Shown here one piece after another: positions 2 to 2,307 of a stretch of 43,280 nucleotides of DNA. Below the pieces are notes generated by a model. It was not told the DNA's origin. It saw only the letters and a program-made list of their open reading frames with translations, and ran no database searches. The stretch is from Nitrososphaerales archaeon. Lineage in GTDB: Archaea > Thermoproteota > Nitrososphaeria > Nitrososphaerales > Nitrososphaeraceae. The position numbers and the translations under genes are program-made. How positions within the stretch are numbered: position 1 is the stretch's first letter; each line of letters begins with the position of its first letter. Where the stretch lies: NCBI GenBank assembly GCA_029237525.1, contig JARBAU010000003.1:1-43280 (forward strand), in the 5' to 3' direction.

Positions 2-1306
2 GCAACAGCAATAGTATCAGCAGGTGCATCTGCATCAGCCGCAGCCGCAGCCGCTTCGGCAGCATCTAGTGCTGCAGCAAGTGGAGCATCGGCAGCAGGT
101 ACAGCCGCAGCCGCAGCCGCAGCCGCTTCAGCAGCAGGTGCGTCTTCTGGTGGTGTAGCCGCAGCCGCAGCCGCAGCCGCAGCATCATCCGTAGGTGCTT
201 CTTCAGCAGCAACTGCAGCTGCTGCTTCAGCAGCCGCAAGTGCAGCAGCAAGTGGAGCATCTGCATCTGGAGTTGCATCGGCTGCAGCAGCCGCAGCAAC
301 AGCAGCAGGTGCATCCTCAGCAGCCGCATCTGCAGTATCTTCCTCAATTTCTTCGTCGGCCGCAGCCGCTTCAGCAGCATCCTCTGTGTTGAAATCGCCG
401 ATTTCGTCAGCAGCAGCTACCGCCGCAGCTACAGCCGCATCCTTTGCCGCTCAAAATGCGGGGGCATCTGCATCAGCAGCAGCAGCAGCCGCTTCAGCAG
501 CATCTAGTGCTGCAGCTAGTGGTGCATCTGTCGCCGGTACTGCAGCCGCAGCCGCAGCAGCCGCAGCGGCCGCTGGAGCTTCGAGTGGAGGAGTTGCAGC
601 TGCAGCCGCAGCCGCAGCAGCCTCAGCCTCAGGTGCGTCATCGGCGGCTTCAGTTGCAGCCGCAGCCGCAGCCGCAGCCGCAGCAGCAAGTGGAGCATCT
701 GCATCTGGAGTTGCCTCTGCAGCCGCTTCAGCCGCTTCAGCCGCAGGTGCCTCGCCGGTTGCAGCCGCAGCCGCAGCAGCATCAGCTGCTGGTGGTGGAG
801 CAGCTGCAGCAGCTGCAACAGCAGCGTCAGCAGCTGGTGGTAGCTCTGCAACTGCTTTGGCTGCAGCTAACGCGGCTTCCTCAGCAGTAGCTGCAGGGTC
901 CTCAGTTGGTGGAGTAGCAGCTGCAGCAGCTTCCGCTGCTTCGACCGCTGGTGGATCTCCTAGCGCAGCAGCTGCAGCAGCTGCAGCAGCTGCAGCTACT
1001 GCAGCAGGTGCCTCGCCAAAAGGCGCCGCTGCAGCCGCAGCAGCAGCGTCTAGTGCAGCAGCAGGTGGATCTTCAACAGGAGGATCAACAGGTATATCCG
1101 CAGCCGGAGCCGCAGCCGCAGCCGCCACTGCCGCAGGTGCCTCACCAGCTGCAGCTGCAGCCGCAGCCGCAGCCGCATCTAGTGCAGCAGGAAGTGGGGC
1201 AGCATGTTCAAACGTTGCAGCTGCCACTTCAGCTGCAGCTTCATCTGCTGGAGCTTCACCAGCCGCAGCCGCAGCCGCAGCCGCAGCAGTCGGATGTTCA
1301 AAATAA
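2..1306 (+). CDS. Alanine-rich silk-like repeat protein (5' partial)
   Basis: One reading frame stays open from base 2 to the stop at 1304-1306 (434 codons), so the start lies left of the window. About 60% of residues are Ala; nearly all the rest are Ser, Gly and Thr. The sequence is built from modules of about 18-20 residues: a cap such as GASP, GASA, GGSS or GSSVGG followed by 8-12 alanines. Two Cys occur near the C-terminus (GAACSN and VGCSK); no membrane anchor is visible. Ala codons switch among GCA, GCC and GCT while their first two bases are fixed, which favours this frame as the coding one, and a terminator follows on the same strand. GC content (about 60%) is far above the flanks. 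Function is unknown: a structural, fibre-forming or surface role is inference. Frames giving poly-Gln or poly-Leu here are shadows. Confidence 0.7.
   Translation, partial: ATAIVSAGASASAAAAAASAASSAAASGASAAGTAAAAAAAASAAGASSGGVAAAAAAAAASSVGASSAATAAAASAAASAAASGASASGVASAAAAAATAAGASSAAASAVSSSISSSAAAASAASSVLKSPISSAAATAAATAASFAAQNAGASASAAAAAASAASSAAASGASVAGTAAAAAAAAAAAGASSGGVAAAAAAAAASASGASSAASVAAAAAAAAAAASGASASGVASAAASAASAAGASPVAAAAAAASAAGGGAAAAAATAASAAGGSSATALAAANAASSAVAAGSSVGGVAAAAASAASTAGGSPSAAAAAAAAAAATAAGASPKGAAAAAAAASSAAAGGSSTGGSTGISAAGAAAAAATAAGASPAAAAAAAAAASSAAGSGAACSNVAAATSAAASSAGASPAAAAAAAAAVGCSK
26..768 (+). repeat. 438-bp (146-codon) imperfect tandem duplication inside the Ala-rich gene
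   Basis: Landmarks in the first copy recur exactly 438 bases later without gaps. GCATCTGCATCAGC at 26 recurs at 464, the GGTGC cap at 194 at 632, AGTGGAGCATCTGCATCTGG at 251 at 689, and the GGTGC at 308 at 746. The spacing is a multiple of three, so frame is kept. Differences are mostly third-position changes or Ala/Ser/Thr swaps. The limits are approximate because low-complexity sequence surrounds them. Confidence 0.75.
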
Positions 1307-1327
1307 AACTCTAAAATATGCCAATAT

Positions 1328-1361
1328 TAGAACAAAATGTGTTCTAAACTTATTTTTTTAT
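1328..1361 (+). terminator. Hairpin terminator after the Ala-rich gene
   Basis: TAGAACA (1328-1334) and TGTTCTA (1340-1346) form a perfect 7-bp stem with a 5-base loop, followed within 5 bases by a T-rich run (1351-1359). It lies about 20 bases after the stop codon, which supports plus-strand transcription of the Ala-rich gene. Between here and the S3Ae promoter at about 1607 there is only AT-rich sequence with short repeats of AATTTCAG, and no gene. Confidence 0.6.
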
Positions 1362-1615: not shown

Positions 1616-1635
1616 GGATGCAAAATGTAAATTTG

Positions 1636-2307
1636 ATGGTAAAGGGAGGTAAAAGAGGAGGTCGCGTTAGGGATAAATGGCGCGATAAACAGTGGGTAAT
1701 CGTTAATTCACCTTCTGCATTTGGTGGTAGTGCGCTTAATTACGTTCCAATAACTGATCATAATAGTGCTAAGGGTAGAATACTTGAAAATACCATGTTC
1801 GATGTATTGAAGCAGGACCCAACCCAGCATCAAACAAAGGTGTTTGTTCAAATAGAAAATATCGCTGAAGGTACAGCTACTACGGTATTCAAAGGTCATG
1901 AGTATGCAAAAGAATTCTTGAGGAGTTTAGTTAGGAGAGGCAGCTCAATGATCACTTTTGTGCACGACTACACAACAGCAGATGGATATATTTTCAGAGT
2001 CGAGGTAATTGCATTTACTCAGAGAAGACTCAACTCTTCGAAAAAACATCAAATCCGTATGGTTGCACATAATTTATTGACTTCAAAGGTAGGGAAATTG
2101 ACAATTGACCAATTTGTGCAAGAGGTAACGATTGGAAAAATTGGCGCTGACCTATTGGTGGATGCCAAAAAGATCGCATCGCTTCGCCATATAGGAATAA
2201 AGAAATCAAAGTTGATTTCAACGCCCCAATCAAGACAGATCGAAGAGGCCAAGCAAATCCAGGTAACGACTGAACCTAACGAACAAACCGCTGATGCTGC
2301 GGCATAA
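1636..2307 (+). CDS. rps3ae: 30S ribosomal protein S3Ae (eS1)
   Basis: This is the archaeal/eukaryotic ribosomal protein eS1 of the small subunit. The N-terminus is basic and Gly-rich (GGKRGGRVRDKWRDKQW), followed by typical family stretches such as KVFVQIENI and the arm around RRGSSMITFVHDYTT. From ATG 1636 the product is 223 aa, close to the family norm. ATG 1618 in the same frame would add six residues but sits on the presumed transcription start. It is the first gene of a four-gene co-directional RNA-processing cluster; the next gene begins 29 bases downstream. The C-terminal tail is polar and probably disordered. Confidence 0.93.
   Translation: MVKGGKRGGRVRDKWRDKQWVIVNSPSAFGGSALNYVPITDHNSAKGRILENTMFDVLKQDPTQHQTKVFVQIENIAEGTATTVFKGHEYAKEFLRSLVRRGSSMITFVHDYTTADGYIFRVEVIAFTQRRLNSSKKHQIRMVAHNLLTSKVGKLTIDQFVQEVTIGKIGADLLVDAKKIASLRHIGIKKSKLISTPQSRQIEEAKQIQVTTEPNEQTADAAA

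Follow-up and report, generated by a model that had tools for sequence, protein, structure and literature searches.

A poly-alanine protein with a silk-like layout in a soil ammonia-oxidising archaeon of the Nitrososphaeraceae

What does the alanine-rich open frame at the edge of this archaeal contig encode, and what could such a protein do? The window, which is the whole stretch of 43,280 nucleotides analysed here, comes from a Nitrososphaeraceae MAG of 3.7 Mb (400 contigs, 93.7% complete, 2% contamination), and its positions 1-1306 are the 5' end of contig C31. The contig is archaeal, because the neighbouring gene (1618..2307, + strand) encodes a ribosomal protein S3Ae (Pfam PF01015) with Nitrososphaeraceae relatives. 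The genes on the 3' side of the frame are S3Ae, an RNA-binding protein and ALAD, and RNase P p30 and Rpp14/Pop5 are also found downstream as weak matches under the Pfam cut-offs.

The open frame and its coding strand

The 3' part of a poly-Ala/Ser/Gly protein gene (2..1306, + strand) is formed by a single open frame of 434 codons (2-1303) and a TAA stop codon (1304-1306), and it runs off the 5' end of the contig. A frame of at least 434 codons with about 60% Ala, as proposed by a sequence-only reading of this DNA, is borne out: Ala accounts for 57.8% of the residues, followed by Ser (20%), Gly (9.9%), Val (3.7%) and Thr (3.5%). No base-shuffled version of the region reached an open run of this length (maximum of 364 codons in 500 shuffles). 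The encoded part has three Lys and no Arg, Asp or Glu residues, contains no strongly hydrophobic segment (hydropathy maximum of 1.44) and has no match among Pfam, NCBIfam and PDB sequences; its AlphaFold2 model, made without an alignment, has an uninformative pLDDT of 38.

The protein has 18 Ala runs of 4-11 residues, 15 of them of at least six residues and nine of at least eight, which lie between Gly/Ser/Pro/Thr caps. The modules of 18-20 residues with Ala blocks of 8-12 that had been described are an approximation, since the runs are spaced by 18-22 residues over much of the length, but the spacing ranges from 13 to 39 residues (mean of 24) and is not regular throughout. Residues 7-30 recur exactly as residues 153-176, a repeat of 24 residues, while the longest one in 200 residue shuffles had 15, and arrays of the hexamer CAGCCG in the DNA are a sign of slippage. 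The two Cys residues noticed close to the end are present and are the only ones of the protein: C402 (1205..1207, + strand) and C432 (1295..1297, + strand).

The GC content is 63% in the first kb and about 38% in the rest of the window, which agrees with the earlier remark that it lies far above the flanks. By codon position, GC is 0.73/0.93/0.24 in the frame and 0.42-0.48/0.37-0.38/0.34-0.37 in four neighbouring genes. Because the third-position value is below that of the neighbours, the high GC of the frame comes only from Ala, Gly and Ser codons, at their first and second bases. Ala codons are mixed (GCA 137, GCC 58, GCT 48, GCG 8).

An internal duplication of 100 codons (20..319 and 458..757, both on the + strand, 76% identical) allows dN/dS to be compared between repeat units. 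The copies differ at 10 first, 5 second and 58 third codon positions, which gives an omega of 0.066 on the + frame, an illustrative and biased estimate because the duplication was picked as the best internal match. This supports the claim that third-position changes back real coding, although third-position variation alone leaves the strand open, because poly-Ala DNA reads as poly-Ala on both strands. An antisense poly-Ala ORF of 258 residues (451..1227, - strand) was rejected as a gene: a (GCN)n array gives GCN again when its complementary strand is read in a shifted frame, so this ORF is a by-product of the repeats, and omega between the duplication copies is higher in it (0.129). The + strand is preferred because of its lower omega, because the stop codon and a hairpin lie on it, and because its Gly/Ser/Thr caps are like those of the related proteins, whose strand is fixed by their signal-peptide N-termini. 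The hairpin (1327..1357, + strand), which has an 8-bp stem (-6.8 kcal/mol) and is followed by a T-run, is a possible terminator; its presence on the same strand was correctly noted, but it is only modestly better than shuffled sequences (z of -2.5 for a 41-nt piece and -1.2 for 77 nt). The frame codes for a genuine protein under purifying selection.

The missing 5' part was sought in the MAG by DNA, by a signal-peptide profile and by the poly-Ala pattern and was not found, nor was a second long poly-Ala piece. Repeats are found at the break points of both contig ends, and the opposite end of the contig (43160-43279) is made of eight copies of a perfect 15-nt tandem repeat, TCTTTCTTGTCTGAC. Presence of the gene in sister genomes is not supported at this locus, as the S3Ae neighbourhoods of relatives, about 690 kb in all, gave no ortholog 5' of S3Ae; in the same-genus genome G001 (CRAIB_MAG63) the contig is broken inside S3Ae.

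Poly-alanine proteins of related genomes

Proteins of similar style are found in the same genus and in a second genus of the family, g9, which includes TH5896 (G016), TH5895 (G023) and Dino_bin45 (G009) and is presumably the genus called TH5896 in PMC12625717, whose name is carried over here. In that floodplain study, no other Nitrososphaeraceae genus was as abundant as TH5896 (PMC12625717). The long TH5896 proteins have from 428 to at least 818 codons and signal-peptide-like N-termini such as LKRNSVQSYILIAIALGAIMLHIVPTTQVFA, as judged by eye in all analogues, and blocks of 7-9 Ala with GG, GS or GGS caps start directly after the signal peptide, without a folded domain. Three of them leave their contig at the 3' side, as repeats would predict. 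Tandem APEGG and VPPGGE motifs, which recall elastomeric repeats, are found at contig ends in G016:C107 (L191), G084:C163 (L193) and G084:C542 (L194). Between G016:C107 and G084:C542, 755 aligned codons show 84% protein identity and 75/67/291 differences by codon position. Omega is 0.177 for this pair, with few gaps but perhaps somewhat low since low-complexity alignment favours matches, and 0.169 for a neighbouring gene of 274 residues. The alignment gives good grounds to regard long poly-Ala proteins of this style as genuine products under constraint in the Nitrososphaeraceae.

The own genus of the MAG has shorter proteins, encoded in the same genome at C292:496-771 and C235:722-1033 (minus strand), which have a signal-peptide-like N-terminus, a His-rich linker and (A)7-8-G repeats. 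G001:C115 is their counterpart, and omega of the repeat part of these three proteins is 0.10-0.13. Another protein of the same genome (L038; G000:C328, 3-629), whose 5' end is off the contig, has His-rich and Ala-Ser repeats at its end.

The TH5896 and own-genus proteins are like the window protein in their Ala blocks, Gly/Ser caps, AT-rich third positions and host family, and they differ in having known, signal-peptide-like N-termini, that of the window protein being unassembled. TH5896 proteins are also richer in Gly and have charged or PEGG tails. Compared with five TH5896 proteins, the window protein gives scores only about 0.5-2.2 sd from those of its own module-shuffled versions, while the same test gives 15-17 sd when the long TH5896 orthologs are compared with one another and 5 sd when one TH5896 subfamily is compared with another. 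Common descent is thus unsupported beyond composition and module style, because the scores are mostly no better than those of module-shuffled versions; the window protein may be convergent with the TH5896 proteins or too diverged from them. At an E-value of 1e-12 in an evenly sampled set of 398 genomes from the phylum, the sole match was its own genome, and no TH5896 genome is among the matches listed. The window protein is no lone oddity, since proteins of its kind are present in at least two genera.

Other candidates were set aside. Ala-rich matches in other families of the order are of a different kind, being Ala/Glu/Lys linkers of cupredoxin-like proteins or tails of ribosomal proteins, and many poly-GCN matches of genus g2 appear to be simple CAG repeats in other frames. 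In the cupredoxin-like proteins of f9 genomes (L156, L158, L160), a hydrophobic segment at the N-terminus is followed by long Ala/Glu/Lys linkers that vary in length, and a transposase-like ORF (L157; G011:C12, 1340-2377) has repeated ATA tripeptides in an internal run.

In TH5895 (G023), two poly-Ala genes are each the last gene of an exopolysaccharide-type cluster, which contains glycosyltransferases, epimerases (C165) or an aminotransferase (C468), a flippase-like protein (with a Pfam match in C468 only) and a weakly PsbP-like protein. A membrane-type protein of about 670-690 residues without a Pfam match adjoins both poly-Ala genes (L196, G023:C165, 13588-15663; L197, G023:C468, 13999-16002); among 70 genomes of the family, 20 encode it, and it was not found in the MAG of the window. 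The remaining poly-Ala copies are lone genes amid housekeeping genes, and so is the window gene; the exopolysaccharide context belongs to the TH5895 copies and not to the window locus.

Possible role of the window protein

The explanation that we favour, with a probability of roughly 0.55, is that the gene encodes a poly-Ala protein that is secreted and serves in a matrix or as a fibre. The soil ammonia-oxidising archaeon would build an insoluble or fibrous extracellular material from it, such as a matrix, sheath or coat. Export is deduced from the analogues because the 5' end of the window gene is missing, and self-assembly and a matrix role are likewise what we infer for the protein. The short Ala blocks would pack together, either in stacked beta-sheets or as short helices, the Gly/Ser/Pro/Thr caps would act as turns and linkers, and C402 and C432 could link chains. 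Genes of this type probably grow through slippage of GCN repeats and through duplication, with selection holding the amino acids while synonymous sites would drift. A broader proposal is tentative and somewhat doubtful: soil ammonia oxidisers of at least two genera might have a set of several genes, shared or independently evolved, for secreted poly-Ala proteins with a silk-like layout, and these proteins would self-assemble into extracellular fibres or sheaths with exopolysaccharide.

It is rather unlikely that the window stretch is instead a low-complexity stalk or linker, which would space or anchor a folded surface or enzymatic domain at the missing N-terminus. The absence of the 5' end leaves room for such a domain, related archaea have Ala-rich linkers on folded domains, such as those of the f9 cupredoxin-like proteins, and Dino_bin45 (G009, L062) has a protein with a domain and poly-Ala. 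Against this, the repeats of the long TH5896 proteins follow the signal peptide directly, and the window stretch, with more than 434 nearly uncharged residues, is unlike the charged linkers that were found.

Ice binding or protection from desiccation, in which Ala-rich helices would bind ice or shield surfaces, is improbable. The type I fish antifreeze protein is an Ala helix with about 60% Ala and a Thr every 11 residues, so its Ala content is similar to that of the window protein, and the soil habitat presumably undergoes freezing and drying. The window protein, however, is far longer, has helix-breaking Gly/Pro caps between its Ala blocks and has no 11-residue Thr repeat, with a single Thr pair at spacing 11 among its 15 Thr.

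Neutral expansion of a GCN repeat without a working protein has little to recommend it: the hexamer arrays that mark slippage and the lack of a detected ortholog would fit, but the mixed Ala codons, the omega of the duplication and the analogues of two genera, which are conserved and under purifying selection, argue against it. An assembly chimera, in which the first 1.3 kb would come from another organism, such as a eukaryote or a high-GC bacterium, is very improbable in spite of the contig end, the repeats and the 63% GC, as the third-position GC of 0.24 suits an AT-rich host and is matched by TH5896 poly-Ala genes (0.21-0.37), and proteins of the same style are found on other contigs of the MAG.

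If the matrix or fibre reading is true, silk-type protein materials would exist in archaea, among the commonest soil nitrifier groups, and proteins could underlie the aggregation and drought tolerance of soil ammonia-oxidising archaea, besides being a new source of poly-Ala materials. Such genes also reveal a blind spot, as short-read assemblies break at them and no protein family matches them. In the open-access literature, nothing was found that links Nitrososphaera-type names to polyalanine or ammonia-oxidising archaea to alanine-rich secreted proteins, a weak test that covers few subscription journals; within it, this kind of protein seems to be undescribed in archaea.

Comparison with known silks

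Spider major ampullate spidroins and the fibroins of Antheraea-type wild silkmoths have runs of 6-12 Ala that alternate with Gly/Ser-rich linkers. The window protein shares with them poly-Ala blocks of at least six residues (15 runs) and Gly/Ser linkers. Of their motifs, it has eight GGX, no GPG (and thus no GPGXX) and no GAGAG (and thus no GAGAGS). No spidroin terminal domain was matched in Pfam or NCBIfam by the 434-residue part, which includes the true C-terminus, the N-terminal end being outside the contig. The description as a silk-like poly-Ala/Gly protein of an AT-rich archaeon therefore holds for the protein itself, for which codon statistics and the conserved, secreted analogues of the family speak, but not for homology with silks, as both the database matches (Pfam, NCBIfam, PDB) and the GPGXX and GAGAGS motifs are lacking. 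The window protein belongs to no silk family and would at most work like silk, and because its host is archaeal, convergence is the only sensible relation behind the likeness.
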